Of a stretch of 47,350 nucleotides of DNA, positions 344 through 36,173 are shown in pieces. Source of the DNA: a virus; the IMG/VR virus record IMGVR_UViG_3300046003_003527, positions 1-47,350 of that record; one strand, written 5' to 3'. The stretch's first letter is position 1. Each line of letters opens with the position of its first letter. Below the pieces are notes generated by a model, which worked only from the letters and a program-made list of their open reading frames with translations, was not told the origin of the DNA and did not search any database. The position numbers were made by a program, and so were the translations under genes.

Positions 344-3300
344 ATGGCATCATATAATCAAAATTTTTTAGATAAAAGGTATATATCAAACAATGATATT
401 GATGTAAACGCTATGATGATTAGTGTTATAGATGAAACTAAAAATGGTACCTTTGACACACTCAAAAAAGAATTGGAATCAACTCAAAATGATAATATTT
501 TAACAGCTGGTGTAAGTAATCACACTATTTTTGCACAAAATATGGTAAAAGAAACCACCACTGGTAAATTTTTTAAAAGCGGTCAAATGTTTTTAAATAA
601 TATAGAATGTGAATCAAACCCTGGTTACTTAGATTTTAATTTTCTAACAACAGCTTTTAAAACAACACAAGGTTTAGTTGAATTACCTATACACACGATA
701 TTAAAAATTGGTGGTATGTACGATTTTTATTATTATAATGATTATGAAAAAGACGATAAAATTGATCTTGGTATTGTAAATGGTTTAAAAACAAAAAATG
801 GTTATGATTTATTTGATGACCCTATCATAAGAAACAAACATTATGGTACTTATGTATTTGATGATAAGAACCTTATTTTAGCAACAGCACCATTTGTAAA
901 ACCAATAACACCAAAACATGTTGATGATTTGGTTGGTAATGGTAGTGATTCTTTTAGTAATACTAATTTTAGTAAAAACTATAAAGAAAAATACTATGAT
1001 TATGATCTTGAGGTTCAATTGTCTTTAAATAATAATATCGCATCACACATGCCATTTAGTGGTTATGGTGTTTTGAACAATTACATGAATGCAATGTCGC
1101 ATTTCTTTTTTGGGCAAGGACTTGATGGTAGTACTGATATAACTGATACCACAAATAATGACGGTATTCCTTATCATATTATTGGTAATTTTAAGGGTAA
1201 TTTAAAAACGTTTAAAACTTATAATGATACACAACTTAATTTTTTAGCATCATATAATAGTTTTGGCCCCAAAATTAAACATAATATTAATATTGAGGTT
1301 TTAAAAACAAGTTTAAATACATTAACAAAAACAATCACACTTGACGCTAAGTTTGTTTTTTCAAAAGATACTAAAAAAACTGAGTTTTTTTTATTGCTAT
1401 CAAAAATTAAAGCTAATTACCTTGGCGGTTATATTTCAACAGATTATGTTTACACAATAATTAAAGGTTTATGTGAAGTTAATAATTTAAACGCAAAACA
1501 TGAAAATATTCCTTTATCCGATTTCACCGCATTATTAATACACTTACTTTTTTATCCAGATGGTACTGAAAGAGATTCCAGAAGACCTAATAAAACACTT
1601 AGAATATTATCATTGTATGACGTGGACCCAAATTCATTCATGCCAATAATAACATATGACACAAAAACTATTTCACAACTTACCGATTTTTTAACAAATA
1701 TAATAATTGAGTCACCAGAAAAACAATATGAACAAGTCGCCTATTTATTATTATCTTTATGGTCAAAAGAATTTAACCGAAAAATAAGTGATAGGTTATC
1801 AAAGATAGATGAAGAAGGTACATACGTTGTTTACCCAAGTTGTGGGGGTGAGATTAATATTAAAGAATTATTTTCAAATAAAAATTACACCTACAATAAA
1901 ACAAATAATGTATCAACACTTATAGAAAAAGCTGATTTAAGTGATTCTTATATCACAGGTCTAACAACATCATCATTTACTAATATTGGTACGAATGAAA
2001 AACGTTATGATAATATAAACAATGATGTGTTAAGTGCTTTAAATTTTGATTACAAAACTTTTTACAGCAACTTACCAAACAATATTTCGATTGATAAACC
2101 ACCTATTGCCGATTTTCTAGCTATAAAGGGTTTAGCTGGTACACTTAAATATTCACAAAAAGATACGAATCCAAAATCAATAGAAGATAACGACAATTTC
2201 TTTTTATCAAAATATCAAGTTGTAACATCAAATCTTGATAGATATGATGATTTATATATTATCGCAAACACAACAAACCCGTCTGGAATTAAAGAATTAT
2301 ATTTTGATAATAGAAATCTTATTAATAATACATCTAAATTATTTTGGTTTGATCAAACAAGAAATATTTTTCCGATAACCAAAGACTATGTTTCACAAAA
2401 CGGTCAACATTTAGTGGATGGTAAAGTTTATGATAACTATGAGGTGTCACAATACGGTCATGATGGTAACGTAAGACAGTTGTATGATTGGGGTAATCCG
2501 TTAAAGGATAAACTTAATATTACCGACTATTCAAAATTTGAAAAAGATAAATCTTTATATTTTAGTGCTAAATGGTTTACTATTGATAATAAAAAAGAAA
2601 TAGTTACTACAGCTGAAATTGATGCGCTTATTGACATATTTGGTGTTGATAAGTTAGAAGATTTTAGGTCTTTATTTAAAAATTTTACTGATACAGACAC
2701 AGGGGATTATTTTACCGAAACTTTTAACACGTTTAACTTTCAGTCGTTAATCAAACATACAAATATTTTTGGTTATAAAGATTTACCAGATAGCGTAACA
2801 TTAGATAGAGCATACACAAAAGAAGAGATATCAGCTTTTTTATGTGGTTATTCTGGTTATTTTATTGAGTTTGCATCTAAAAATGATGTATCTAAAATAA
2901 TAAACTACGCTTTAACGATCGGTCAAGAAAATAAAGCTAAAATTGTTATTGATGAGTTTATGAACGATAAGATAACGATCAACAACTACTCAACAACAGG
3001 ACCTTTATATGTAGATAATACCTTAAACAACCCAAAAGGTCTTAGGTTAAACTCTAATATATTTAATCCAATAATAATGTATGCTACTGAAACAAGAACA
3101 CCTGATAATATTATAGCTAAACTTGACTATAGGTTATTATTTAGAACATTGTTATTCGGAGACCAACCTATTAAATCATATGACGTAAAAACAATACCAG
3201 ATAATTTTAACACTTTGGTTGATAAATATTTGGGATCTCGTGAATTATATAGCGTTGAACCAACACTGGGAAAAATATTATTACCAGAATTAACAAAGAT

Positions 3301-6300
3301 ATTCTTTAGTACATTAAACATTGAAATTACCGAAGGTAATTTAAAATTATTATTAGCGTACTTAAAAAGTTATATATATTATTATATTGGTTCAGAAGAA
3401 AAATCAATAATCTCATCCGATGGTTTTGACATAACAGGTTTAAAAATAATTAATAATAGAAACGCAACAATATATCCTTCATCTGATACAGCTAAAGATG
3501 AAGAGATTGATTATACTATTGACCCTGATGCTAATAGTACTAACATTGTGATAAATCAGGTTACAAACGGTGTTTTAGAACCAGTTGGTGAAGTAAAATA
3601 CTTATTTAACACAATTGATGACCTTAAACCAAGGGAAAAACTTAAAGAGTATATCGATTATACTAATAAAAATATTTTAACAAACCAGATAGAAACTTTT
3701 AATATAGGTTTAGAGAAGTTTTCAGAACTAGCAAAATCAAAAATTGATACATTACCTACGTTAGAAGATTCTGGGTCAGAAGATGAAAAATGGGATGAAA
3801 AATTAAAAAAACAAGATATTGAATTAAGAACAGGTACTTACTATAGGATTAAAACGTTATATGATAGAAGTGTTTCATTTAATAATATAGATTTAAACGA
3901 TAGTAAATTAATTAGAAAAAGAAGTAAAGATTTAGCTAATATAAATGTAAATGACATATTAGATAATCCGTTATTTTTTAATTTTAATATTGAAACAGAT
4001 GACACTGACTATGAAAATTGTGTTGATAAAAATATAATCGCGGATAAGACAGATCCAAAAATCAGTGATGGTAGGTTAAAAGATCTTTATGATTATGCCT
4101 TTGTTTTGGATAGAGGTAATAATGATTACGGTAGTAGGGTATTGGCGAATATTAACGCACTTAAAAAGGTTATTGCGGATGACATAACAAATGTTACGCA
4201 AGTTGATAATACACTAAGATCAAAGTCAATGTGGTCCGTCTTATCAACCTTAGCGAGTGATCACGAATTTTTGTTATTACCTTTAACATCTTATATTAAT
4301 TTAAACGGTGCTGTTAAGGATGCCACTGACCCTTTTGAATTGGCTCATGATATGTTTGGTGTTTTTAACAACCTTGAAATGTTCAAGTCAAACCCAGCGT
4401 TCATATTTCAATTGGGTTCATTAACATCAAACGTTTCCGCTGGTAATAAACAAAAGAGAAACAGTTTATCCGAATTTGATTTGAGTAATACATTTTGTAT
4501 GGACATAGAAACAAACCAATTGGATTCAGATGGTAATGGTAAACTTTTAGATGAGGGTATACCAAATGATATTTTAAATTCAAACGTTTCTTCATTTATT
4601 GTCGATTTTGGAAATAAAAACCAAAACATGTTTCAAAATATTCAACTATCAACAGATGAATTTGCTAACACGGAAGAAAGTATATTTACTCAGGTTAATT
4701 TAACATCAGATAGTGGAAATATCGCTCAGTTATCAACAGGTAAATTATTTACCGCAATGGAAAACAGATCTTATTCTTGTACTGTTACAAGTTTAGGTAA
4801 TGCTAGTATACAACCATTAACATATTTTTACGTTAAAAACGTACCATTATTTTACGGAACTTATTGGATTACGAATGTAAGTCATAAAATAACACCCAAT
4901 AATATGACAACAACATTTAAAGGTGTTAGACAACCAATAGCAAAGAAACCAACAGCAAACACAACCGTATTACAACAATTATTTAAAAAAGCAGAAGCTG
5001 CTGTTGTAGCATCTGGTGGTATTTCAAACGATCAAAGAATTAACGGGGCCACATTTGGACCTGTTTTTGCCGCAAATAACAGAGATAGTCCAGCAGATGC
5101 TACTGATAATGGTTTCGGTTTATTTGCACAAGAATCTGTTCAAAAACCAGGTCTTTTTGTTAATTATAGTGGGCAATGGATTGCGGCCGCATATCTTAAA
5201 TTGATGACAAAAGGTGATAAAAGTAATATGTTATTAATAAAAGCTTTAATCGCTTATTTATATAGCAATGCGTCAACACTTATTAATGAGATTAATGCCA
5301 CTACCAATAGTGCTAATGGTGTTATTGATCCACCATCGCCAGCGACTGCTGTTAAATATTTTGCTGATATCATTGTTTATGATCTATATAACAAAATAGA
5401 TACTAATAATATTGATATTAAAAAAAATGGTGCAACATCGGTATCAATATCGAAATTACTTGGTAATTACGATACGAAAAATAGTGATTATGAAGAGATA
5501 TTATCTGAATTTCAACAAAAAAATGATACTGAGGCGTTAGAATATTTAAAACATGATAAAGCAATAACAGGTGTTAAAACAACGTTAATTACCTCAGATA
5601 CTGGTGGTGTTGTCGCTAATGATGCGGCTAAAGCAAAAATAAGTTATCCCGATGATATTGAAGGTATACCAGCCACAGATACATCCAACTTTATTGGTGC
5701 GGCGTATTGGGTTTCAGGTAAAAAAGAAAATAACTTTATTGAGTTACAAGGTTTTAATAGATATCAGTTAACTAATGAGTTATATAATACAACTAAACCA
5801 GGTAACTCAGCAAACCCTTTTATACCTGATTTTGAACTAACAAGTTTTACCCTTGACTCTGGCGTAAGTACGATTGACCTTAACTCAAAATATTTTATTA
5901 TTGTTAAATTTAGTAATAGTCCTAATGGAAACTATACACCCGAAATAGTTCAACCGAATAATAACCTAACTATTAACCCTAACATTAACCCTAACGCTAA
6001 TTTAAACCCAGTTACAGCTAATTTAAATAATATTAACACTACTAATACTAGTCTTAGTACTCCATTACCTGGTAATCCTAATTATATAGATCCTTATTTT
6101 AATAATAACCCATGGGGTAGTTCTATTTTTAACCCCGTTCCAACGAATTATACCGCTCCTACCCTTAAGTATGGTATACGTGAAAAATTCGTGGTATTAA
6201 CAACCACTACTACACAATCACTAGAATTTGTTATTGGTCAACAAAATTATGAAAAATATAAAAGTTATGGGCATATCGAGATTGAACTTTATACCCCTTA

Positions 6301-8002
6301 TAAGACATCTGACGGTTACCCAAAACAAGTTATAACAGAGTGGAAGTATAAAAGAATAGGTACTAAAAAATATGATTTTAATCCTACAAATGCGACATCA
6401 CAAAATACGACTAACATACCTGTTGTACTCGGTTTTGGAGATGTAAATGGTGGGGGGGAATCGAAAACATATTCTACAAATAACGGTAAATTTACTTACG
6501 GTAAATCATTTAGTAATAAATATAATAGGGGTGGAAATGATTATCTAGCGAATGTATTAGGTGCTATTAAAAACGGTAATAATTCATACGTTAGTTTTCT
6601 TTCTATAAGACTTTGGGACGAGAAAGCTAAATTCCTCAAAGATCGAACTGTTAGAAGTTATATTGACCTTAACGTTTTAGGTAATAATGTAGATAAAAAA
6701 GCTTGGACAATAGAAAATAAAAATATTGACCTAAGCAACCTTTATATTCAACAACCACCAGCAGGAAATAACGCAGCAGGAAATAACGCAGCAGGAAATA
6801 ACAGACGTAGTTCACAAAGACGGACTACGACTAGGACTAAAAATGTATCACAACTAACTGGCCAAGCACTCAACAATGCGATGTATATTAAAAATTACCT
6901 AAAAGGTAAAGGTTTTTCAAAAGAAGAAGTTGCTGGTACTTTGGGTAACATGATGACAGAAACAGGGGGTTCATTTGACCCTGAAATAACAAATGGAAGG
7001 GATGTTAACCGTCTAATATCTGTAGGTTTAATACAATGGAATAGTATAAATTTTAATAAAACCAACAAACAGGGAGTACTTAATAAAATTGGGTATACTG
7101 TACAAGCACAATTAGATTATTTAACTGCTGGTGGTTGGAAAAACAAGACCAATCAATTCCGTGAAGATTTTAAAAAAGAAATCCAAAACCAAAACCCCAC
7201 ATTAAAAATCTCCCAAACTAAGGGTAAAGCAGAAGGGTTATCGGAAGGGGAGTTTAATGCTTATAAAGCTGGATATTTTTTCGCCCAATCTGTTGAAATT
7301 TGCAATAATTGTAATCAAGGCTTTGAAAGTTATCATGAGACAATTACTAAAACAGTTGGCACCGATAAATACACCATAAAAGCGTTTGAAAGAAGTGGAT
7401 ATGCAGTTGATTTTTATAAAAGAATGAATGACGTTAACGACCCTTTAAAATGGGAATCCACAGCATCATCAGCACAGCCAACATCATCATCAGCACAGCC
7501 AACATCATCATCAGCGCAGTCAACATCACAGGATGTAGTAACAATAGGGGATTCTATTTCAATACTTATTAATAAAATTTATCCAAATATAAAACTTATA
7601 CCTAATTTAAGCGAGAGTGGTAAACCAGCTAGTTGGTTATTGGGTCAATTAGAAAAAATTAATAACACAATTAGTGCTCCTTTATATGTAATCTTATCTA
7701 TTGGATCAAATAATCTTTGGAAATTAGATTCAGATGGTGTTGATAAAAAACTAATTGAAAAAATTAAAGAAGTTTTCCCTTCCGCTAATTTATATATACT
7801 AAATGGTAGTTATGGTTGGCTTAATCTAACAGGTGGGTCTGATAAAGATTGGGAAGATAAAATAAATAAGTATACCAGTTTTTATGAAGATAAAGGTTTT
7901 AATATTATTGGTGATGTGAGTAAACTAACTACCCACCCAAGACAGGATGATAATTTGCTTAAATCCTTTAATAGAAATATGAAAGCGCTTAAGATAATAT
8001 AG
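344..8002 (+). CDS. Giant baseplate hub-like protein with tail lysozyme and C-terminal SGNH hydrolase domains (2552 aa)
   Basis: Residues 1 to about 1400 are unrecognised. Residues about 1415-1535 look like the end of a tail hub (gp27/gpD-type) domain, including the stretch YWITNVSHKI followed by a T-x-F-x-G-V-R segment. About 1910-1960 is an Asn/Pro-rich linker. A small repeat (AGNNA units) at about 2140-2153 leads into a phage tail lysozyme-like domain at about 2165-2365, with GNMMTETGG supplying candidate catalytic Glu2206. A Ser/Gln/Pro repeat linker (about 2374-2394) leads to an SGNH hydrolase domain: GDS with nucleophile Ser2404, a GSNN block at 2454-2457, and a His-Pro at 2531-2532. 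The Asp usually three residues before that His is Leu here. The family picture suggests cell-wall penetration plus removal of acyl groups from surface glycan. The lysozyme and SGNH assignments are fairly secure; the hub assignment is moderate. Confidence 0.75.
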   Translation: MASYNQNFLDKRYISNNDIDVNAMMISVIDETKNGTFDTLKKELESTQNDNILTAGVSNHTIFAQNMVKETTTGKFFKSGQMFLNNIECESNPGYLDFNFLTTAFKTTQGLVELPIHTILKIGGMYDFYYYNDYEKDDKIDLGIVNGLKTKNGYDLFDDPIIRNKHYGTYVFDDKNLILATAPFVKPITPKHVDDLVGNGSDSFSNTNFSKNYKEKYYDYDLEVQLSLNNNIASHMPFSGYGVLNNYMNAMSHFFFGQGLDGSTDITDTTNNDGIPYHIIGNFKGNLKTFKTYNDTQLNFLASYNSFGPKIKHNINIEVLKTSLNTLTKTITLDAKFVFSKDTKKTEFFLLLSKIKANYLGGYISTDYVYTIIKGLCEVNNLNAKHENIPLSDFTALLIHLLFYPDGTERDSRRPNKTLRILSLYDVDPNSFMPIITYDTKTISQLTDFLTNIIIESPEKQYEQVAYLLLSLWSKEFNRKISDRLSKIDEEGTYVVYPSCGGEINIKELFSNKNYTYNKTNNVSTLIEKADLSDSYITGLTTSSFTNIGTNEKRYDNINNDVLSALNFDYKTFYSNLPNNISIDKPPIADFLAIKGLAGTLKYSQKDTNPKSIEDNDNFFLSKYQVVTSNLDRYDDLYIIANTTNPSGIKELYFDNRNLINNTSKLFWFDQTRNIFPITKDYVSQNGQHLVDGKVYDNYEVSQYGHDGNVRQLYDWGNPLKDKLNITDYSKFEKDKSLYFSAKWFTIDNKKEIVTTAEIDALIDIFGVDKLEDFRSLFKNFTDTDTGDYFTETFNTFNFQSLIKHTNIFGYKDLPDSVTLDRAYTKEEISAFLCGYSGYFIEFASKNDVSKIINYALTIGQENKAKIVIDEFMNDKITINNYSTTGPLYVDNTLNNPKGLRLNSNIFNPIIMYATETRTPDNIIAKLDYRLLFRTLLFGDQPIKSYDVKTIPDNFNTLVDKYLGSRELYSVEPTLGKILLPELTKIFFSTLNIEITEGNLKLLLAYLKSYIYYYIGSEEKSIISSDGFDITGLKIINNRNATIYPSSDTAKDEEIDYTIDPDANSTNIVINQVTNGVLEPVGEVKYLFNTIDDLKPREKLKEYIDYTNKNILTNQIETFNIGLEKFSELAKSKIDTLPTLEDSGSEDEKWDEKLKKQDIELRTGTYYRIKTLYDRSVSFNNIDLNDSKLIRKRSKDLANINVNDILDNPLFFNFNIETDDTDYENCVDKNIIADKTDPKISDGRLKDLYDYAFVLDRGNNDYGSRVLANINALKKVIADDITNVTQVDNTLRSKSMWSVLSTLASDHEFLLLPLTSYINLNGAVKDATDPFELAHDMFGVFNNLEMFKSNPAFIFQLGSLTSNVSAGNKQKRNSLSEFDLSNTFCMDIETNQLDSDGNGKLLDEGIPNDILNSNVSSFIVDFGNKNQNMFQNIQLSTDEFANTEESIFTQVNLTSDSGNIAQLSTGKLFTAMENRSYSCTVTSLGNASIQPLTYFYVKNVPLFYGTYWITNVSHKITPNNMTTTFKGVRQPIAKKPTANTTVLQQLFKKAEAAVVASGGISNDQRINGATFGPVFAANNRDSPADATDNGFGLFAQESVQKPGLFVNYSGQWIAAAYLKLMTKGDKSNMLLIKALIAYLYSNASTLINEINATTNSANGVIDPPSPATAVKYFADIIVYDLYNKIDTNNIDIKKNGATSVSISKLLGNYDTKNSDYEEILSEFQQKNDTEALEYLKHDKAITGVKTTLITSDTGGVVANDAAKAKISYPDDIEGIPATDTSNFIGAAYWVSGKKENNFIELQGFNRYQLTNELYNTTKPGNSANPFIPDFELTSFTLDSGVSTIDLNSKYFIIVKFSNSPNGNYTPEIVQPNNNLTINPNINPNANLNPVTANLNNINTTNTSLSTPLPGNPNYIDPYFNNNPWGSSIFNPVPTNYTAPTLKYGIREKFVVLTTTTTQSLEFVIGQQNYEKYKSYGHIEIELYTPYKTSDGYPKQVITEWKYKRIGTKKYDFNPTNATSQNTTNIPVVLGFGDVNGGGESKTYSTNNGKFTYGKSFSNKYNRGGNDYLANVLGAIKNGNNSYVSFLSIRLWDEKAKFLKDRTVRSYIDLNVLGNNVDKKAWTIENKNIDLSNLYIQQPPAGNNAAGNNAAGNNRRSSQRRTTTRTKNVSQLTGQALNNAMYIKNYLKGKGFSKEEVAGTLGNMMTETGGSFDPEITNGRDVNRLISVGLIQWNSINFNKTNKQGVLNKIGYTVQAQLDYLTAGGWKNKTNQFREDFKKEIQNQNPTLKISQTKGKAEGLSEGEFNAYKAGYFFAQSVEICNNCNQGFESYHETITKTVGTDKYTIKAFERSGYAVDFYKRMNDVNDPLKWESTASSAQPTSSSAQPTSSSAQSTSQDVVTIGDSISILINKIYPNIKLIPNLSESGKPASWLLGQLEKINNTISAPLYVILSIGSNNLWKLDSDGVDKKLIEKIKEVFPSANLYILNGSYGWLNLTGGSDKDWEDKINKYTSFYEDKGFNIIGDVSKLTTHPRQDDNLLKSFNRNMKALKII
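6761..6802 (+). repeat. 15-bp in-frame tandem repeat, 2.8 copies
   Basis: The unit GCAGGAAATAACGCA occurs twice perfectly and is followed by 12 bases of a third copy. It encodes AGNNA units. It sits immediately upstream of the lysozyme-like domain of the giant hub-like protein, so it is a flexible linker whose length could change by slippage without a frameshift. Confidence 0.9.
7463..7525 (+). repeat. 21-bp in-frame tandem repeat, 3 copies
   Basis: Three consecutive 21-base units encode SSSAQPT-like heptapeptides. Units 1 and 2 differ at one base, and unit 3 carries two changes. The repeat separates the lysozyme-like domain from the SGNH hydrolase domain of the hub-like protein, so it is an interdomain linker. 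Confidence 0.9.
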
Positions 8003-13106: not shown

Positions 13107-14519
13107 ATGGCTAAAATAATAAGCAGCTTTGAAGATTTAGGTAAAGATTTTCAATTACAATTAATAAATGAAATAGTTACAGACCACAAATTTGGTGAAT
13201 CAATAATAGATATTATTGAACCAAAATATTTTCCATCCGAGGCCTTCCAAAAGATTGCTCACATAATTAAGAACTACCATAAAGAACACGATGTGTTATT
13301 AAATTTTCCATCGTTAAGACTTGAGGTTAAAAATGAAATTGGGCCAGAGTTTGAAGCTTTTAGAACGCAATTAGATGATACTATCAACGATATAGAAAAT
13401 TGTAAAGTTGGTAACCTAAACACACAGAATAACGCTAAAAAATTCTGTAAATTACAATCAATACGTAGTGCTGTAAATGAGATAAAAACGAAATTAGATC
13501 GTGGTGTTATTTCAGACTACGATGAAATCGAAAAAAAGATTAAAGATGCTATCACTTTTAAAGAAGAACAGGATCCCATCTTATTATTCGATAACATAGA
13601 CAAAGTCTTATCAGAAGACTATAGAGACCCAATGCCAACAGGTATTCAGGGTATCGATGACTGCACAAAAGGTGGGTTATCAAAAGGTGAGGTTGGTTTA
13701 GTTATTGCACCACTTGGTGTTGGTAAAACAACTTTCTTAACAAAAGTTGCTAGTAGCGCATTCCTTAGTGGAAGAACTGTATTACAAATATTTTTTGAGG
13801 ATAAAGAAGAAGCTGTACAGAGAAAACATTTTTCAGCTTTAACAAAAATACCGCTTTCTGAGTTATCAGAAAATAAAGCTTTGATTCAAACAAAAATCAA
13901 AGCTATTAAAGAGGAATACAAAAACAATTTGTATTTACAGAAATTACCAGCCGATGGTGTTACGATAAATAAAATCAAAAACATCATTAAAAAAATCAAT
14001 TCTAAAGGTACTAAAGTTGATATGCTTGTTTTAGACTACATTGACTGTCTTTCCATGGAGAAAGAAACTTCAAATTCAGAGGAGTGGTCAAATGAAGGTA
14101 AAATCATGCGTGCGTTTGAAAGTATGGTAGATGAGATGAATGTTGCTGGTTGGACCGCAACCCAAGGTAATAGAAGTTCAACAAGTGTTGAGGTGGTTAA
14201 GACTGAAAATATGGGTGGTAACCTTAAAAAAGCGCAGATTGCTCACTTTATTATGAGTATTGGTAAAACTCTTGAACAAAAAGATCATAAGGTTGCAACA
14301 ATATCAATCCTTAAAAACCGTATGGGTGATGATGGTATGATATTTAAAGATTGTTTATTTGACAATTCAAGGATTTTAATCGATACAAATGATATGTTAA
14401 CGGAAAAAGGTTTTGAGACTCAAAAACAACAGCAAAGTGTTGAGGTTAGAAGGAAATACTTAGAGGGGTTAAAAAAAGATAAAGAAGAAACAACAGAAAT
14501 TAGTGAAGGTTTAGGATAA
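13107..14519 (+). CDS. 41: Replicative DNA helicase, gp41/DnaB-like (470 aa)
   Basis: This is a hexameric 5'-3' helicase that unwinds the fork and recruits primase. An all-helical N-terminal domain (residues 1 to about 160) precedes a RecA-like motor domain: GIQGIDDCTKGGLSKGEVGL, Walker A APLGVGKT at 201-208, Walker B MLVLDYID with Asp310, and the GNRSS sensor region after WTATQ. The C-terminal 30 residues are charged and probably disordered. The length is close to T4 gp41 (475 residues). The matching primase gene is not adjacent; it lies at 44536 in a separate transcription unit. Confidence 0.92.
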   Translation: MAKIISSFEDLGKDFQLQLINEIVTDHKFGESIIDIIEPKYFPSEAFQKIAHIIKNYHKEHDVLLNFPSLRLEVKNEIGPEFEAFRTQLDDTINDIENCKVGNLNTQNNAKKFCKLQSIRSAVNEIKTKLDRGVISDYDEIEKKIKDAITFKEEQDPILLFDNIDKVLSEDYRDPMPTGIQGIDDCTKGGLSKGEVGLVIAPLGVGKTTFLTKVASSAFLSGRTVLQIFFEDKEEAVQRKHFSALTKIPLSELSENKALIQTKIKAIKEEYKNNLYLQKLPADGVTINKIKNIIKKINSKGTKVDMLVLDYIDCLSMEKETSNSEEWSNEGKIMRAFESMVDEMNVAGWTATQGNRSSTSVEVVKTENMGGNLKKAQIAHFIMSIGKTLEQKDHKVATISILKNRMGDDGMIFKDCLFDNSRILIDTNDMLTEKGFETQKQQQSVEVRRKYLEGLKKDKEETTEISEGLG

Positions 14520-14560
14520 TAAACGTATCTTTACCCATATTTATTTAAACAATAAAAATT

Positions 14561-15511
14561 ATGCAAGAAAAAATTTTACAGGAAAATCCAAATAGATTTG
14601 TTATTTTCCCTATTGAACACAACGACATTTGGGAGTTCTACAAACAACATCAGGCTGCGTTTTGGACAGCTGAAGAAGTCGATTTATCTAACGATACCAG
14701 GGATTGGCAAAACTTAACGGATAATGAAAGGTATTTTATTAAAAACATTTTATCATTCTTTGCTTCATCGGATGGTATTGTTAATGAAAACCTTGCTGAG
14801 AATTTTTTAAAAGAAGTGCAATACCCAGAGGCTAAGTTCTTTTATGGGATTCAGATTGCCATGGAAAATATCCACAGCCTTATGTATTCTTTGTTGATTG
14901 ATACTTACATATCAAATGCACAAGAAAAACTAGAAAGTTTCAGGGCATTGGAACATTTACCAGCGGTACAGAAAAAAGCTAATTGGGCTTTGAACTGGAT
15001 TGAAAACGCTTCTTTTCAAGAAAGATTGGTTGCGTTTGCGGCTGTAGAAGGTATTTTCTTCTCAGGATCTTTCTGCTCAATTTTTTGGTTAAAATCAAGA
15101 GGTTTGATGCAGGGTTTATGCAACGCAAATACACTTATTTTTAAAGACGAAAATTTACATTGTGATTTTGCGATTAACTTAATTAACAACCACATTGAGA
15201 ATAAACCATCAGAAAGTAGAATCAGAGAGATTTTATTATCTGCTTTGGAAATCGAAAAAGAATTTATCACAGAGTCATTACCAGTGTCACTTATTGGTAT
15301 GAACTCAAACTTAATGAAACAATATTTAGAGTTTGTTACAGATGGTTTGTTGGTTAAATTTGGGTGCAAAAAAGAGTTCAACGTTGAACAACCTTTTAAA
15401 TTCATGGAACAAATTGCTGTTGAAACAAAAGGTAACTTCTTTGAGTCAAGAACAGTAGAGTATCAGAAAGCTAAATTGAATGAGAAGCTTAGTTTTACTG
15501 ATAATTTTTAA
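14561..15511 (+). CDS. nrdB: Class Ia ribonucleotide reductase small (R2) subunit (316 aa)
   Basis: This subunit houses the diiron-tyrosyl radical cofactor that drives NDP reduction. All ligands are visible: Asp41 (EEVDLS), Glu102 and His105 (MENIHS), Glu163 (AAVEGIFF), Glu197 and His200 (KDENLH). The radical Tyr is Tyr109, four residues after His105. The MENIHS[11 protein letters not shown] arrangement is closer to the eukaryotic/mouse R2 type than to E. coli NrdB. The C-terminal SFTDNF is the expected R1-docking peptide. It precedes nrdA by 29 bases, the reverse of the common nrdA-nrdB order. Its leader contains an AT-rich box (TATTTATTTAA at 14538) but no clear sigma-A promoter. Confidence 0.95.
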
Positions 15512-27226: not shown

Positions 27227-28120
27227 ATGGCAATTGGTGTATACGGAGTTAAAAGACCAGCAGATGTTGACCCTTCAGACATAGAAGTTATTGTTTTATA
27301 CAGTAAAACAAGAAATTCAACTGAAACGCAGACTGTTACAAAATTAAAAGGTACCGATGTTATTAAACAGGTATTTGACCCAACAAACGCTGTTGAGGTA
27401 TTAGGTGGTATGTATAATTTAGAGTTACCTAAAACAGTTTTTAACGCTAGAGGGTATTATACAGTCTATATTAGACCTGCTCAAATAAGAATACAAATTG
27501 AGGATTGTGCTGAATTAGCAACTTTTCCAGATATAAAAGGTCTTGTGTTTAACACAACAAGTGTACCAACTGAATTTCAAAGTAAATTCACTAATAACGG
27601 TTTAGATGGTTATAGAGTTGAGTATTTAAATGAGAACGGTAGTAAACAATCAAATATCTACAGGATTATCACATCCTCTTTTATTGTTGAACCAGTACAG
27701 GTAGACACACCGAATAGTTCAGTAAAAACAATTAAATACACATACAATAATGTTGGATCACTATTGTTTTGTACGGTAACACCAAACGCAGCACCAAGTT
27801 TTAAACCAACTGCAACACCATTTATTGGTTATAAAGGTCAAAATGTTATAATAACGAATACAAGTTTTACACCACAAATACTTGAGGTTGAATTAGTTAA
27901 CTATGATATTGAAAGTTTGGCAATCGCTTTATATTCCAATCAAACAAAATCAATGGAAGATGGTATATACACATTGTATGATTTCGATAATAACATCTAC
28001 GCTCAATATGATTTATATGAGATTAAAGATAGTACAGATAATAAATTGTATGAAGTTAGAACAAAAAGAGATAATATAGATACAACAAAAGATTTAAATA
28101 ATATAGTAGGAAATGGCTAA
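27227..28120 (+). CDS. Unknown baseplate-operon protein (297 aa)
   Basis: This beta-rich protein begins MAIGVYGVKRPADVDPSDIEV. Its middle (IRPAQIRIQIEDCAELATFP) and C-terminal part (PFIGYKGQNVIITNTSFTPQ) suggest several small beta-sandwich units. It has no signal peptide, membrane segment or catalytic motif. It starts two bases after the 280-residue gene and overlaps the giant downstream gene by eight bases. It could connect wedge and fibre proteins, but this is positional guesswork. Confidence 0.7.
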   Translation: MAIGVYGVKRPADVDPSDIEVIVLYSKTRNSTETQTVTKLKGTDVIKQVFDPTNAVEVLGGMYNLELPKTVFNARGYYTVYIRPAQIRIQIEDCAELATFPDIKGLVFNTTSVPTEFQSKFTNNGLDGYRVEYLNENGSKQSNIYRIITSSFIVEPVQVDTPNSSVKTIKYTYNNVGSLLFCTVTPNAAPSFKPTATPFIGYKGQNVIITNTSFTPQILEVELVNYDIESLAIALYSNQTKSMEDGIYTLYDFDNNIYAQYDLYEIKDSTDNKLYEVRTKRDNIDTTKDLNNIVGNG

Positions 28121-31100
28121 TCTTAGTTACTCAAACACACCATTAATAGCCGATTTATACGATACACCAGAAGCGGCGATTGCGGCTTCAATTAATTTAG
28201 GTTGTAGTGGATACAGAACGTATAACATTAACGGGCAAAATAAATATGTTCCTTGTGGGACATATTTGGCTTATGAACAAGCCTTAAAGTTTGTAAAAAG
28301 ACAAGGGGTTCAAAATGCGATATCAGGTAAAGGTAATATTGGTGATAAAGCTGTTGGTTTGCAATTCGCAAATAACAACAATGAAATAGCTGGTGACCCG
28401 TTTTTTACTTTAGGTAATTTTTCAATCAATACTAGTGTTTCGCAAAAACCAGCTATTGGTAAAACAGCTAAAATTAGTCCTGAAACAAGACAGTATACGG
28501 CGGCATCAATAAATGATTTAAACCCTAATAAAAATACAGATGCAACAACCAATTTGGTTGATACTATTAACGCTAAGATTGAAAATAATTTAACGGTAAC
28601 GATTCTTTTTGATAAGAAAAAATTAGAGAATTATGTTTTATATTCTCCATTAAAAGAAACCGTTAAAAATACAATAGTTGAAATATCACAAAAATATCCA
28701 GCGGCCCTTAAATTAAACGTAACTGGTTTATTATCACCGACTGTGATTGATTATAGTTATAACACCAATAAAGATACTTCTGAGTTTAAGATAAACATAA
28801 ATAACATTGAAAACCCGTTTGATATCGAATACACTGTAACTGGTACACTAGTAACTGATAATCCAAACATAACACCCATTAGAAATTTTTCTAAAAAATA
28901 CCGTGATTTTGTTCTTTATTACAATGACATTGAGTATAAAATATTAAATGTAACCTTACCAAACTCAAAAACCGATACCGATAACGGTATTTATTTGGTT
29001 GTTCAAGGTAATCCTTTTGGTGATGTGGTTAATAACAACCAAACAGTTAATAAAACATTCTGGTTAAAACCATCATTAAAAAAATTCGATGAATTCCAAA
29101 GTGGTTTATCTGACATGGGTAAATTTTTGATGGATTATGATTATGAGTTAAAAAGATATGTTTCGGTTATTAGGTATACAAAAGTAACAGATTCTGGTGT
29201 TAGATTAAATACTGAAGAACGATTAGTTTTTCCACAATCTGATAGCAACAATATTGATATTTTTTCCTCAGATTTTGATGTTTATTTAACAAAATTGAAT
29301 CGAATATCAGATGATTTTGACGAAACTAAAACAAACTTAATTTCAAGATTCTTAACAACAGATTCGTTAAAAGAATTTGATACTGATGATAGGAAAATAA
29401 AGTTGATGTTTGGTCTTATTGGTAAAAATTTTGATAACATAAGAAAGTACATTGATGGTATAACCTTCATGACAAATTTAACTTATGACAAAATTGAAAA
29501 CATACCAGATTTATTGGTTAAGAATTTTGGTAACATGTTGGGTTTTGAAACCTACAATGTTGAAGATGAAAATACAATCATTGAATCTTTATTCAATATA
29601 AAAGATCTTAATGTTGAACCTGGTTTAACCCCAGCTGAAATTGATATTGAATTATGGAGAAGAATATTTATAAACGCTTATTATCTTTGGAAATCAAAAG
29701 GTACTAGAAAATCAATTGAATTTATTTTAAATTTGGTTGGTTTACCAGATTCTATTTTTGAGATTAGTGAGCATGTTTATATGGCTAGAAATCCGATTAA
29801 TTATACCGATAAGTCATATGAAATATATGGTAATAATTATTCTGATGAAACGTTATTAACTTTACTGCCTTTTGATAAAGATGGTTACCCAACGGTACCT
29901 CACGATGTGAGATACCAAGAAAGTGGTTTTACCACAACAAATGATGGTAGAAACTTTGGACCTTATGATTTTGGTAAACAATACATCCAAGCTTTTGAAA
30001 AAAGAGGTAATGTTGATATGTTTACGGTTGATAGATATGTTGATAATGTTAAATCATGGGCTTATAGCACAGAAGAGGTTTTAAGATTATCAGATGATTC
30101 TGTTGGGTATACAGAATACTACGAACCAAACTCTAAATTAGTTATCAACTCAAAAGAGTTGGAAGTTTATTTAGCCTCAGATAAAATATTTGATTTATCA
30201 ATTTATAGATATTACAATAGAAACGCTGTTGATATTAATAGTGATTTAACGTTTAGGGTTGTACCAACAATAAATGGGGGTGATTTAACCTTTAATCAGT
30301 TCTTACAAAAATCACTTGACAACTACATTAAGCCAGATAATAGAAAAACAATTAAAACATATCCAACATTAACTAAAATATATTACGATTATCTAAACAG
30401 TGTCTCGTCACCAATGACAAACACAAAAGATTTAGAATTCTTAAGTTATTTTGATTCATCTTGGGTAAAATTGGTACAACAATTTACACCAGCAACAACA
30501 ATATTAAACGCTGGTAAGAAAATACAGAACTCCAAGTTCATGGATAATAAGTTTATCTATAAACACGGGTTAAACAATAGTGTTAGTTGGTTAGGTACAG
30601 ATGGGTCAGAATTTCAAGATTTAGCCAAAAAAACGGTTAATCAAGGTTTAATAAACCCATTCAATACAATTGGTGTTAACAAATTACCAATTGCTGGTGA
30701 ATCATCAACATTTACACTTGAAGGTTTAAGGGGTAAAAATTATGTTGGTTATGATCCAACGATTAACGAATATTTTGGTTTTTATTATGGTATTGAAGAA
30801 GCCTGCGCTTCAGAACTTCAAATATACAAATGGGAAGATGGTTTAGATTTTGGTAACGATACCATACATTTTGGTAATGTGAACGTTGGAAACCTTGAAT
30901 CGTTTGGTTTAGGGAACCCAGCTTATGGACCTAATTATTACCCAACCAGTAAAATAATAACATTACCAGATGGTCCTGGTACATATTTATTAGCATTTAA
31001 ATATGCAAGTAATGATGATTTATATGTTTATAACGCGTCAACCAATAGCAACCCAAGTTTAATAGCTACTTTAGGATCTACAGGTACAATAAGTTCTTAT

Positions 31101-34100
31101 AGTGCTATAGTAACAGTTACTGGTAATACAATATCAGTCTATAACGATCTTAATAATGGTTTTGATTGTTATATTTCAGATTTATTTGTTATACCTTTAA
31201 CTGAAGTACAAAAGAAGGGTACTTTCATAACATATGATAATAAGTTATATAGACTAAACACAAACACTTTATTTATTAACCCTACCCAAATAAATACGTA
31301 CCCAGAAGTTAAAAAAAGTTATGTGTTATTGGATGCTGGATATATCTCAGATACCATAACGTTACCAAACGGACCTGGTGATTATAAAGTGACATTCACT
31401 TTATCAGGTGATGATGTTATTATCTACGATGGTTATATTTCTGGTGCTACAACTTCATCTAGTACCACACAAATAGATTCATTTAGTATTGTTAGTGGAA
31501 CAACCAAAACATACTCAGCTAATTTAACTTTAGCAACAAATTATATAACAATTAGAAACATATTTACTTTTGGTAATGATGCTACGATAACAAATTTAGT
31601 TATATCACAAAAACATACACCAGATTCGTTAACAGTTAACAGTGAAATGGTTTATGAATATATACCATTTGATGCTGACGCAAAAACATTAACGTTTAAA
31701 GATTCTGATTCAATATTATTGATGCCAGACCCTATTTCTGGTAACACACATACAGTTAAATTACCAGAAGGACCTGGAACATATCAGTTAACTTTCACAA
31801 CAGATACTGGAGATGATATGAGAGTATATGACGGTAAAACAATCGCTGGGACTCTTTTAATAACCAAGGCTCGTGGTGCTGGTGTTGTTAATCACTCAAG
31901 TTCAATAACCTCAACTACTGGCTTTATCACTTTTTATAATATTGGTAACGTTAATACACCAAATAAAATTATAGATTTAAAATTAGATGGTGTTCCATTG
32001 GATGCGACATCACTTGAGGAGAGAAATTATTATATTGAAGCGATATCTTTTGGTCATGCTCATTTAGCAGCTGACGTTGATTTCTTATGTCCAATACCAA
32101 AACCACACACATGCTATTTTAATTTTAGTGGTAATACGATATCAATGGCAACAGCTGGTATCACTGATTATTATGATGAGTCTGGTAAATATTTGACGAT
32201 TGAACAATCAAAATATTACGGGTATTCAAAAAATACCGTAGCAACAAAACCAAATAATGCTCTTTACGGAACAACATCTAATTGGATTATACCTTACCAA
32301 AAAGAAAATATATGGACTACTGGTGTGACTTACTATAAAGGTGATATTGTAAAGTACCCAAGCACAGGTTCAACTTATTATGAAGTTACGTTTGATACTG
32401 TTACAGGTACAACAACAACACCAACTGGTGCCACGGTGACAACTATTGTTCCTGGTTTATATCAACATTATACTGGAAGAACAACGACAGACCCTTACAT
32501 GCATATAAACTCTGCAAACATTAAAAAGAATTTGATTAATCCGTTGTCGGATATAATCTCATTTAATTTAACAAAATCATTATACTTATACCAAGTTTAT
32601 AGTGGGGCTACAGATCAAGAAACTTATAAAGTTATTGATAATTTATTAAATGATGAGTTATATATTAGTGATTCAAACACGTTATCATTTGATGGTTTTT
32701 ATTCGTTAGATGAAACTAAAGTTGGTCCTTTTTATACTCCAAATGTTGAATCGATAGGTATACAAACATTGGTTGAATCGATAGATCTGGTTCCAGACAC
32801 AAATAATTATATAGATTTTGAATCACTTAATACCAATTTTAATTTTGTTAATAGTAATATTAGTTTAAGTAACGGTTATTACTTAATAAAACAAAATAAA
32901 TATTTTAAATTTGACATAGATTTATTTTTTGAATCAGAACTTATTGTACAACAATCTGTTATAATCAAATTAATTGATCAATTTGGTGGGTTAATTCATG
33001 AACAATTATTCACATTTAGTGGTGCTGACGTAAATACGCTTAGAGTTGTTAATTTTACACATGAGGGTGTGTTTTTTACCGATACAAAGGTTTATTTAGT
33101 GATTGAACCAGTAACAGAAGGGTGTAGATTATCTAGATACGAAACAATTGATGTTGATTATGCTAATGCTGCAACATACGATTCATTAGATGACCCAAGA
33201 TTTAGGGTTTATTTTAATGGTGGTAGAGGTTTAATTAATAACCATTATTTTGACGATGCTTTATCAATAGAACCGATTGGTTATAATGATAATCATACGG
33301 TAGATAATTATTTATTAAAACTTGAAAATACGTATGATACATACGAATTCATACCAAAATTAAATATAAACCAATCATATGGTGAGGATTACAATTTTGG
33401 TTTATTATATGGGCGATATTTTGAAAAGTATAAAAATACTTCACAAATTGGTGATGTAACTTCTTATGAAAAGAAATTTAATAATGATTATGTTAATTTT
33501 GAATTAACTGTTAGAAGTAAAGAATTAAATAACACACCTCAATATTATACTACTGGTAGTACACCTCAAATTTATTATTCATTTGCTGGTTCTGAAAAAA
33601 CATATACAATTTCATCCACTGGAAATTACTTAGGTAATACACCACAGGCTGTTGAAAACACTAGTATAACAAAAAATATTTTTATCGGTAAAACACCAAA
33701 ACCTAGAGTGGTTAATCTTAATAGACCAAATTATCCGTTTTTAAAGTTATATAATAATGATGTTGAGTTAACAGGTACAACCATTAATTTTTTGGGGTAT
33801 GATGATGGTCTTGATGATTATAATCAATTAGATTTTAGTGGTGATTTAGTTGACAGTTTAATATCTAAAAAAAGGTATAAATTAATTACTGGTTCAACAT
33901 ACGGATATTTAAAAAAAGAAAATGATGTTTATAAAACAGAACTATATCAAGATATTTTATCTGTTGTACCATATTTCAGTACAAGTATTAATAATTACGT
34001 TATTAATGATATCGTTAAAGTTAAATTAAGTAATTATAGAAAAGTTGTTGAAAGCACCACAGGTACAACGGTAGAAACAACTGATGTTGAAAGATTATAT

Positions 34101-36173
34101 GTTTGTGTGGAAGATATAACAGCCGATCATTTATGTAAAATAAGTGGTTATTCATCAACATTTGAAATACACCCAATCTACAGACCAAATGGTGCTAGAA
34201 CTTGTTTTATTCCAATAGAAAATTATAATTTAAAAAATTTCACACCAATAGGTTATGATAAACAAATTATATTTGATACAACAAGGTCAAATGTTGCTCC
34301 TTATAGATACAGAGAACCAATTATATTAGACGGCACACCAACACAAAAATTAGATTTAGGTGACATAGTTAAAACTTACGCTAGTGGTAGTGGTTCGTCA
34401 ACAGTATATACTTTATATGAATATGTTTACAATAAACCATTAACTTGGGATTCAACTAACAATTATTATCTTGGTGAAATAGTTTATTACCCTGGATCTA
34501 ATTTTGCGACAGACGCTAAATATAGTTTTTGGTATAACGTAAACTCCTCAACTGGTACTCCACCAGGTGGTGCTGGTTGGTATGAAATGCCTGTAACTGG
34601 TACGAACGCCAATAGCCCATTTTGGATAAAAGATATTACAGGTATAACAACAAACCCAAATTTTTATACTAACGGACCAGCAGCGTATAGAGTTAAAAAT
34701 TTATTACCAACTGTGTCTAGTGTAACTGGGTATGATTATCGCCTACCATTAACTGGAACAACAAATATTGCAATCGCTGATGCGTTTTATCGAACTTTAC
34801 CTGGTGACACAAACGGTATAGAAGAACACACTGATGTTATCGATTATTTTAGAATAACAGGATCAACATTAGATTATACGGGTACGTCTAACAGTTTAAT
34901 GACTTTTACTGGTACACAAGATACCAATTTAATACAGAATAGTTACACTTATACACTAGTAAATGGTTTATTATATGGATTTACTTTTCCACAACGATTA
35001 GTTGGGCAGGTGTTTTGGATGTATTATAACCCATTAGTTAATATACAACCATTATTTCATAATGTAGGTACTACAGCCGAAGATAACGGGATATTAGATT
35101 TTATTGCTACAGGTACAACATATAACAGCAATTCTAATTATCACAGTAAAAAATACACTGTTAGCAGAAATGTTTTATATAGAACAGTTCCTGGTATTGG
35201 AACATTTACAAACGCAATAGAACCACACTTATCTACAAATTGGGAAGAGCGTGATTTTATGTTGGTTAATAAATTTACCTTTAAAAAAGATAGATGTAGG
35301 GTTAGTATTTATGAAGGTACGATTGAATCAATTAATACTCTAACAAAAAATAACCTTTATTTCTTTGATAGTAATTTAAAATTAAAAACAGGTTTTACAG
35401 AACAAACGTTTAGTGGAGCAACAACAAACGAAAAACTATTAAATGGTGTTAATAAACTTTTTGATGCTAAGAACACAAATCTTAGAAGTGTTAAAAATTA
35501 TGGTTTAACTGGGTTTAGAAAAGTTGGTAGTGACATAATTATGGATTATTATTATGAAAAAGATGATAACGGGTTACCTTTTACTGGTGAGTTTATTGGT
35601 GGTTTAACAATAACAAATCCTTGTGGACATACAGCAAAAACAATATTTGGTGCTTTATTTGAAGCTGATTTAACCAAGTTAGACCAATTGAGCCCTAGGA
35701 TTATGACACCACAAGCTTTACCAGAAAATATTGGATTAATAACACGTTTCCGACCAGAAGTTAGATTAATTATTAATCAAAACGGTGCGTCAAATGTAAC
35801 CGTTATTGTTGAAAATAATACAGCTGGTACCACAGTGTTTAATAAAGTATTAACTAAAAATAAATATTTTGATGAAAACGTTATTGTTAATTACGGAGAA
35901 TCTATTACAATTACTATTAAAACTGATATAACAAGAAACCTTAGTAGATATACATCAGGATTCATGGATAATTATACATTATTTGATGCAAATGATAATG
36001 GTATTGAAAACGGATATTTTGTTTCAACAAAAACAAACGTAAGTAGATTAGTAACAAGAACAATAAAATTAAAAGATATAAATGAAGGTAGAGTTGTAAA
36101 AATTGATTTTGACGGTGCGACAATTGTAACCGCTGAAACGGTTGACCCGAGAGATTACATAAAACTACCATAA
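28113..36173 (+). CDS. Giant baseplate/tail protein with tail-protein-I/gp7-like segment and repeated adhesin-like modules (2686 aa)
   Basis: Residues about 480-570 carry a helical segment (EIDIELWRRIFINAYYLWKS, then GTRKSIEFILNLVGLP) typical of the phage tail protein I / gp7-type wedge family. Three modules whose conserved LPxGPGxY motif starts at residues 951, 1084 and 1217 are spaced exactly 133 residues apart; each continues into a D-D-x-x-V-Y-type strand, resembling a carbohydrate-binding beta-sandwich. Segments near 1398-1455, 2106-2170 and 2339-2385 follow the pattern of small CBM5/12-like domains (W-x-x-x-x-x-Y-x-x-G-D-x-V-x-Y, or the Y...LYR...P...NW variant). The C-terminal 200 residues are beta-rich. 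At more than twice the length of T4 gp7 (1032 residues), it may join wedge and receptor-binding roles in one chain. The structural call is firm; binding specificity is unknown. Confidence 0.75.
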   Translation: MANLSYSNTPLIADLYDTPEAAIAASINLGCSGYRTYNINGQNKYVPCGTYLAYEQALKFVKRQGVQNAISGKGNIGDKAVGLQFANNNNEIAGDPFFTLGNFSINTSVSQKPAIGKTAKISPETRQYTAASINDLNPNKNTDATTNLVDTINAKIENNLTVTILFDKKKLENYVLYSPLKETVKNTIVEISQKYPAALKLNVTGLLSPTVIDYSYNTNKDTSEFKININNIENPFDIEYTVTGTLVTDNPNITPIRNFSKKYRDFVLYYNDIEYKILNVTLPNSKTDTDNGIYLVVQGNPFGDVVNNNQTVNKTFWLKPSLKKFDEFQSGLSDMGKFLMDYDYELKRYVSVIRYTKVTDSGVRLNTEERLVFPQSDSNNIDIFSSDFDVYLTKLNRISDDFDETKTNLISRFLTTDSLKEFDTDDRKIKLMFGLIGKNFDNIRKYIDGITFMTNLTYDKIENIPDLLVKNFGNMLGFETYNVEDENTIIESLFNIKDLNVEPGLTPAEIDIELWRRIFINAYYLWKSKGTRKSIEFILNLVGLPDSIFEISEHVYMARNPINYTDKSYEIYGNNYSDETLLTLLPFDKDGYPTVPHDVRYQESGFTTTNDGRNFGPYDFGKQYIQAFEKRGNVDMFTVDRYVDNVKSWAYSTEEVLRLSDDSVGYTEYYEPNSKLVINSKELEVYLASDKIFDLSIYRYYNRNAVDINSDLTFRVVPTINGGDLTFNQFLQKSLDNYIKPDNRKTIKTYPTLTKIYYDYLNSVSSPMTNTKDLEFLSYFDSSWVKLVQQFTPATTILNAGKKIQNSKFMDNKFIYKHGLNNSVSWLGTDGSEFQDLAKKTVNQGLINPFNTIGVNKLPIAGESSTFTLEGLRGKNYVGYDPTINEYFGFYYGIEEACASELQIYKWEDGLDFGNDTIHFGNVNVGNLESFGLGNPAYGPNYYPTSKIITLPDGPGTYLLAFKYASNDDLYVYNASTNSNPSLIATLGSTGTISSYSAIVTVTGNTISVYNDLNNGFDCYISDLFVIPLTEVQKKGTFITYDNKLYRLNTNTLFINPTQINTYPEVKKSYVLLDAGYISDTITLPNGPGDYKVTFTLSGDDVIIYDGYISGATTSSSTTQIDSFSIVSGTTKTYSANLTLATNYITIRNIFTFGNDATITNLVISQKHTPDSLTVNSEMVYEYIPFDADAKTLTFKDSDSILLMPDPISGNTHTVKLPEGPGTYQLTFTTDTGDDMRVYDGKTIAGTLLITKARGAGVVNHSSSITSTTGFITFYNIGNVNTPNKIIDLKLDGVPLDATSLEERNYYIEAISFGHAHLAADVDFLCPIPKPHTCYFNFSGNTISMATAGITDYYDESGKYLTIEQSKYYGYSKNTVATKPNNALYGTTSNWIIPYQKENIWTTGVTYYKGDIVKYPSTGSTYYEVTFDTVTGTTTTPTGATVTTIVPGLYQHYTGRTTTDPYMHINSANIKKNLINPLSDIISFNLTKSLYLYQVYSGATDQETYKVIDNLLNDELYISDSNTLSFDGFYSLDETKVGPFYTPNVESIGIQTLVESIDLVPDTNNYIDFESLNTNFNFVNSNISLSNGYYLIKQNKYFKFDIDLFFESELIVQQSVIIKLIDQFGGLIHEQLFTFSGADVNTLRVVNFTHEGVFFTDTKVYLVIEPVTEGCRLSRYETIDVDYANAATYDSLDDPRFRVYFNGGRGLINNHYFDDALSIEPIGYNDNHTVDNYLLKLENTYDTYEFIPKLNINQSYGEDYNFGLLYGRYFEKYKNTSQIGDVTSYEKKFNNDYVNFELTVRSKELNNTPQYYTTGSTPQIYYSFAGSEKTYTISSTGNYLGNTPQAVENTSITKNIFIGKTPKPRVVNLNRPNYPFLKLYNNDVELTGTTINFLGYDDGLDDYNQLDFSGDLVDSLISKKRYKLITGSTYGYLKKENDVYKTELYQDILSVVPYFSTSINNYVINDIVKVKLSNYRKVVESTTGTTVETTDVERLYVCVEDITADHLCKISGYSSTFEIHPIYRPNGARTCFIPIENYNLKNFTPIGYDKQIIFDTTRSNVAPYRYREPIILDGTPTQKLDLGDIVKTYASGSGSSTVYTLYEYVYNKPLTWDSTNNYYLGEIVYYPGSNFATDAKYSFWYNVNSSTGTPPGGAGWYEMPVTGTNANSPFWIKDITGITTNPNFYTNGPAAYRVKNLLPTVSSVTGYDYRLPLTGTTNIAIADAFYRTLPGDTNGIEEHTDVIDYFRITGSTLDYTGTSNSLMTFTGTQDTNLIQNSYTYTLVNGLLYGFTFPQRLVGQVFWMYYNPLVNIQPLFHNVGTTAEDNGILDFIATGTTYNSNSNYHSKKYTVSRNVLYRTVPGIGTFTNAIEPHLSTNWEERDFMLVNKFTFKKDRCRVSIYEGTIESINTLTKNNLYFFDSNLKLKTGFTEQTFSGATTNEKLLNGVNKLFDAKNTNLRSVKNYGLTGFRKVGSDIIMDYYYEKDDNGLPFTGEFIGGLTITNPCGHTAKTIFGALFEADLTKLDQLSPRIMTPQALPENIGLITRFRPEVRLIINQNGASNVTVIVENNTAGTTVFNKVLTKNKYFDENVIVNYGESITITIKTDITRNLSRYTSGFMDNYTLFDANDNGIENGYFVSTKTNVSRLVTRTIKLKDINEGRVVKIDFDGATIVTAETVDPRDYIKLP

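Follow-up and report, generated by a model that had tools for sequence, protein, structure and literature searches.

Gp44 (Tal) of the S. aureus phage phi11 has a gp27/Mu gp44-like hub domain and, at its C-terminal end, an SGNH domain that was compared to the CE2 esterase 2WAO (PMC4876445). The protein, also listed with an endopeptidase domain (PMC5380687), has approximately 633 residues, comes from a siphophage with a Gram-positive host and has no described muramidase domain. T4 places a muramidase at the tail tip beside its hub, with gp53 as a neighbour; gp27 and gp5 are, however, separate proteins, and the lysozyme belongs to another family and has no esterase attached. The podovirus tail-tip protein gp13 of phi29 (PDB 3csq) pairs its lysozyme domain with an M23-like domain of its own, but has neither a hub nor an SGNH domain. 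Gp033 of immuto, a cultured Flavobacterium phage (938 aa), ends in a VanY/M15-like sequence (annotated as carboxypeptidase) and thus carries another enzyme. The closest viral SGNH fold to the one described below is that of A0A6J5NSN6 in BFVD ('Lysozyme', uncultured Caudovirales phage, 668 aa), with a TM score of 0.76 but only 20% sequence identity.

The stretch of DNA analysed here ("the window") is a virus record of 47,350 bases, in which a 2552-residue protein, starting from ATG, is encoded at 344-8002 on the + strand. In contrast to phi11 Gp44, it is a putative giant contractile-tail hub with a gp13-type muramidase between the hub and the SGNH domain. It shares with phi29 gp13 a homologous lysozyme domain and the matching catalytic Glu, and its relatives likewise pair such a domain with M23; it shares a gene neighbourhood with immuto gp033, and has no detectable sequence relation to the T4 hub. 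A preliminary description of this sequence had set the fused chain against the separate gp5 and gp27 of T4. That difference holds, but the precedent was understated, since phi11 Gp44 shows that the principle of a hub-SGNH fusion is already known; the BFVD 'Lysozyme' has the same fold. As far as our searches show, what is new is the pairing of a muramidase with an SGNH domain on a giant hub, together with the turnover of the enzyme cassette; we found no literature on such a cassette system in a search of mainly open-access papers.

The ORF is a single frame with zero internal stops. A second assembly in IMG/VR (L002; L numbers denote our loci) contains the entire gene, identical to the window copy, the SGNH end is present on four further contigs in all (L002, L003, L005, and L012), and one more IMG/VR contig carries the N-terminal part alone. 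The ORF is therefore not the assembly error of one sample, and the proposal of one uninterrupted 2552-residue chain stands. In cultured phages, tblastn with the whole protein and with the SGNH domains of its relatives gave one chance match at E 10 and otherwise none. Because only 343 bases precede the gene in the window, its upstream genes are known from relatives only.

The protein begins with a conserved N-terminal part (aa 1-1090; 344-3613), which L057 and L059 encode as a separate upstream ORF. The putative hub core (aa 1095-1550; 3626-4993) shows the strongest conservation in the family and includes a signature block (aa 1405-1532; 4556-4939) with GTYWITNVSHKITPNNMTTTFKGVRQP at its C-terminal end. 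A variable region (4994-6757) then leads to the enzymes; in L046, L049, and L056, hub and cassette are two adjacent ORFs, split near the start of this region (the L056 hub ORF ends at 10597), revealing a natural fusion/fission point. The enzymes are joined by short tandem-repeat linkers, as had been noted before: a 15-bp unit repeated 2.9 times (6759-6802; AAGNN repeats) precedes the Phage_lysozyme2 (Lys2) domain (aa 2177-2370; 6872-7453), and a 21-bp unit repeated 3.3 times (7460-7528; SSAQPTS repeats) precedes the SGNH-fold domain (aa 2398-2552; 7535-7999). All of these features lie on the + strand.

The lysozyme assignment of the preliminary description, with Glu2206 (6959-6961) as candidate catalytic residue, is well supported. 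Residues 2177-2279 match PF18013 at E 1.2e-9, scoring 38.9 bits where the cut-off is 28.2, and a profile of the window protein and three relatives matches phi29 gp13 (PDB 3csr/3csq) at E 2e-7. Glu2206 is unchanged in four relatives and aligns with Glu45 of phi29 gp13, the suggested catalytic residue of that enzyme, corresponding to a Glu of a similar fold whose role has been confirmed by mutation (PMC10394673). Judged by these alignments, the domain is of the phi29 gp13 type and predicted to be a muramidase.

For the C-terminal domain, sequence alone gives a sub-threshold match to Lipase_GDSL_2 in the window (E 0.23) and values of E 0.0009-0.04 in relatives. Built from six sequences, an AF2 model (pLDDT 81, pTM 0.80) has the predicted alpha/beta/alpha fold of the SGNH/GDSL superfamily: GDS follows a strand, GSNN lies behind a strand of the sheet and THP comes ahead of the final helix, all in the expected arrangement. 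A Foldseek search of the PDB places PAF-AH, sialate O-acetylesterases, GDSL lipases, TesA, and CE3 among the top matches (best E 1.4e-4, probability 0.99-1.00). Phage tail fibres are further Foldseek neighbours. The fold that had been proposed for this domain is thus recovered, and the motif residues are where they had been placed: Ser2404 (block I; 7553-7555), Gly2426 (block II; 7619-7621), Asn2456 of GSNN (block III; 7709-7711), and His2531 (block V; 7934-7936). From fold and motif order, Ser2404 and His2531 are probably close to each other. Lipases and PAF-AH-like enzymes belong to the same superfamily, and the domain might be thought to act as a lipase or phospholipase on a membrane; we consider this most improbable, as the domain is small, has no obvious lid and is found together with wall glycan and peptide hydrolases.

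The Asp that usually stands three residues before the block V His is absent: as previously observed, this position is Leu2528 in the window, and across nine homologues it is L, V, C, or T and Asp in none. Ser2404, Asn2456, His2531, Asp2403, an NGxYGW motif, and Asp2536 (7949-7951) are invariant in all nine, as are 27 of 155 columns overall, at pairwise identities of 31-65% (one near-identical pair excepted); Gly2426 is substituted in one. Since the missing Asp is common to all nine and Ser, Asn, and His are invariant, its absence is a trait of the subfamily rather than a sign of decay. Some CE2 esterases are described as Ser-His dyads (PMC9487903), so that loss of the Asp alone does not exclude membership of SGNH/GDSL, although a canonical triad cannot be claimed. 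Asp2536, five residues after the His and directly before the last helix, may supply the acid. The domain could instead bind wall or glycan as a module that has lost catalysis, as the Asp missing from 9/9 copies and the apparent loss of the block V His from a different GDSL domain in a related hub (L071) might suggest; invariance of Ser, Asn, and His across such divergent copies, and the precedent of Asp-free activity in the CE2 dyads, make this improbable. The earlier reading of block V as noncanonical therefore stands, and its suggestion of an inactive enzyme is the less likely part.

Assignment of the N-terminal region is by context. The block at residues 1415-1535 lies inside the most conserved part of the protein, and its AlphaFold model is poor (pLDDT 43): the best Foldseek match has E 0.15, and all matches with a probability of at least 0.54 are contractile-injection or phage tail/baseplate proteins, none of them significant. 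The hub core does not significantly match any known family or solved structure, PHROGs and Pfam searches of 21 hub cores gave nothing significant, and hhalign of the hub against T4 gp27 was negative. A match of one hub core to phrog_184 'baseplate hub' (E 0.29) was taken as chance. The hub profile gave zero matches at E 10 in immuto, Mel-JY01, and LR756508, and a scan of genome contigs for the hub found none.

Downstream of the hub, the window encodes SSB, UvsX, a 5'-3' exonuclease, DnaB, NrdB, NrdA, gp25, and gp6/Baseplate_J, a T4-like set. One end of the immuto record reads gp034 (gp53-like), gp033, gp032, and the other polA, two ORFs, SSB, RecA, exonuclease, DnaB, NrdB, NrdA; if that record is circular or permuted, its order is that of the window. 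In relatives, an ORF of approximately 110 aa two genes upstream of the hub shares a gp53 motif with T4; its pairwise hhalign match to T4 gp53 has E 0.0015 with a probability of only 17. Its match to immuto gp034 is weak (E 0.9), whereas that to LR756508 has E 0.001. The LR756508 ORF that follows the gp53-like gene is homologous to immuto gp033 (E 5e-8) and matches the hub block in register (E 0.007 by blastp of a relative; pairwise hhalign E 0.0009, probability 23), and immuto gp033 itself gives an in-register but non-significant hhalign match to the hub (E 0.09). A tail sheath model is matched in 8/8 relatives' contigs (E <= 6e-5, two of them above the Pfam cut-off), and in our searches of these eight contigs SGNH (two contigs) and Lys2 (four contigs) are confined to the hub ORF. 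Synteny and sheath thus place the hub ORF among the clustered tail genes of a contractile phage. Taken together, the synteny with immuto, the sheath, the gp53-like neighbour, and the weak profile matches make it quite likely that the protein serves as a hub. The hub-like region of the preliminary description is upheld by context as a hub-type tail protein, and not by a family match or structure of its own.

The great length of the chain, and a match to phrog_9570 (tape measure), could point to a tape measure or fibre rather than a hub. This match is, however, limited to the lysozyme region, and the chain is poor in helix-forming residues. A relative has a candidate tape measure in a separate, helix-former-rich ORF of 920 aa between sheath and hub, immuto carries its own annotated tape measure, and the hubs of relatives come after the gp53-like gene, all of which leaves the tape measure or fibre reading with very little probability.

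Several neighbouring genes deserve mention. Between the gp53-like gene and the hub lies a conserved protein of approximately 780-1010 aa without family match (L006, 5052-7994, and equivalents); it might be the hub's other half, although hhalign of this protein as a split first tube domain was not significant. Downstream of the baseplate genes, the window encodes a 2686-aa ORF (28113-36173) without PHROGs match, and the ORFs at 36210-38969 and 42011-43885 have a similar motif near their ends (TQIGIFDSNSVLVAIGKFSEPI and TQLGIHDQDGNLLAICKPTQPI, respectively), so that they are possibly related fibre-type proteins. In the Microcystis phage Mel-JY01 (L081), a gene annotated 'tail lysozyme' (14496-14999) lies directly before a gp6-like gene, in the place expected for gp25; it may have inherited this name from gp25.

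A scan with the hub block yielded 42 loci, representing about 22 distinct hubs. Cassettes were called by Pfam on the hub tails and, for unscanned representatives, by alignment or reading of the sequences; "other" denotes domains without a Pfam match, some of which are lysozyme-like by eye only. The content is largely wall hydrolases (Lys2, M23, DUF2272, VanY, SleB-like, Hydrolase_2, SGNH, and others). M23 is combined with Lys2 (L004/L041, L006/L043, L013, L036/L040, L045, L048, and L056), with Hydrolase_2 (L052 and L046), or with other domains (L047 and L051), and DUF2272 with Hydrolase_2 (L049) or other domains (L063, L069, and L070); the Hydrolase_2 matches of L046 and L049 are under the Pfam cut-off. 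VanY is combined with Lys2 in L062 and with an unassigned glycosidase in L064, and Lys2 stands alone in L058 and L060. The SGNH domain accompanies Lys2 (the window and L067), DUF2272 and Lys2 (L022 and L025), a glycosidase (L010), or DUF2272 and a glycosidase (L026 and L059). L071 carries Lys2 with an unrelated GDSL-type domain, which occupies the C-terminal approximately 200 aa of its ORF (1491-6827); its block V reads SDQWDLTPSGY, with Asp at the usual position of the seemingly lost His, and it is possibly dead. As far as predicted domains tell, the base of the hub is conserved and the C-terminal cassette is varied among the approximately 22 hubs, even between near-identical ones. The glycosidase of some cassettes resembles a cyanophage 'endolysin'. 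In Synechococcus phage Syn19 (L084, 7395-12041), a 1548-aa 'endolysin' that shares the glycosidase-like domain with some cassettes is encoded directly after gp26 and a 'baseplate hub assembly catalyst' gene.

The hub tree bears on how this variety arose. The hub clade of the window (support 100/100) contains three cassette types, and the nearly identical hubs of L047 and L048 (branches 0.009 and 0.026) differ in that Lys2 was found in L048 only. The starred branches of the tree force at least three SGNH gains or losses, and the SGNH domain does not cluster on the tree beyond chance compared with randomly dealt labels (57/500 shuffles as low). The SGNH domain of L010 groups with those of L025/L026 (98/97), whereas its hub belongs to the window's clade. 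On these trees and alignments, the cassette is swapped between phages independently of the hub. Neither this swapping nor the encoding of hub and cassette as separate ORFs in some relatives had been noticed in the preliminary description.

The SGNH domains closest to that of the window (50-51% identical) are on L095 and L091. L095 is an immuto-type hub (33.7% identity to the gp033 region, E 1e-29) that also contains a segment with a match to a cyanophage tail-lysozyme-domain protein and, by eye, a CHAP-like domain. L091, spike-like by eye and likely a spike protein, has matches over its body to immuto gp116 and to a protein that a Microcystis phage encodes near gp25. L091 gave nothing beyond chance against T4 gp5, and a search with this protein for a spike gene in the window and eight relatives, run without a positive control, gave zero matches.

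We propose, at even confidence, that the protein is a virion-borne tip for penetrating the wall: the hub of a contractile phage would carry an exchangeable cassette that couples a muramidase to SGNH-mediated acyl removal. The N-terminal approximately 1550 residues would form the structural hub and the remainder a wall-penetration cassette on flexible linkers. Upon adsorption and sheath contraction, the tip would enter the periplasm and deliver both enzymes; the phi29 gp13-type muramidase (Glu2206) would cleave the glycan strands, and the SGNH esterase, with Ser2404-His2531, an oxyanion hole of Gly2426 and Asn2456 and without the classical Asp, would strip ester-linked acyl groups that obstruct the muramidase, most likely the O-acetyl of MurNAc. 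Lysozymes are blocked when MurNAc is O-acetylated at C6, and Ape1, of the SGNH/GDSL type, is an esterase of O-acetyl-peptidoglycan (PMC6174289). An order of deacylation before cleavage, as suggested in the preliminary description, is conjectural. We further infer that the tip assembles as a trimer, that its enzymes are active, that the esterase has peptidoglycan as its substrate, and that it cooperates with the muramidase. Cassette swapping independent of the hub would be expected if the cassette is tuned to host wall chemistry.

In the literature that we found, the reported substrates of phage SGNH domains are surface polysaccharides, acted upon by tailspike deacetylases. Capsule is the target of gp41, an SGNH tailspike of Aristophanes that is reported to be a deacetylase (PMC11058221), and PMC5380687 lists tailspikes that deacetylate LPS. 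Together with the sialate O-acetylesterases and tail fibres among the Foldseek neighbours, this raises the prospect that the domain deacylates not peptidoglycan but O-antigen, capsule, or exopolysaccharide, easing the tip through the outer layer. We hold this to be rather unlikely, since the domain sits on a central hub amid wall hydrolases and not on a peripheral spike, and all seven hub-borne SGNH copies in the hub family adjoin a muramidase-like domain. This co-occurrence is weak evidence, because most SGNH-free cassettes also have a muramidase-like domain.

Returning to the proposed penetration tip, a broader interpretation that we advance only tentatively is that the hub tip of these large contractile phages serves as a platform for exchange and evolves as receptor-binding proteins do, with its peptidase, muramidase, and esterase modules reshuffled to suit the chemistry of the host wall. 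The SGNH subfamily would then be dedicated to peptidoglycan deacylation from the tail, with a non-Asp active site, and would have moved between unrelated hub and spike proteins. Wall penetration may then be, besides receptor binding, a fast-evolving, modular barrier of host range. The cassettes represent naturally assembled sets of wall enzymes, among them an esterase subfamily with possible activity on walls whose O-acetylation blocks lysozymes, and they make testable the question of whether a tail-tip esterase enables a phage muramidase to work on acetylated peptidoglycan.
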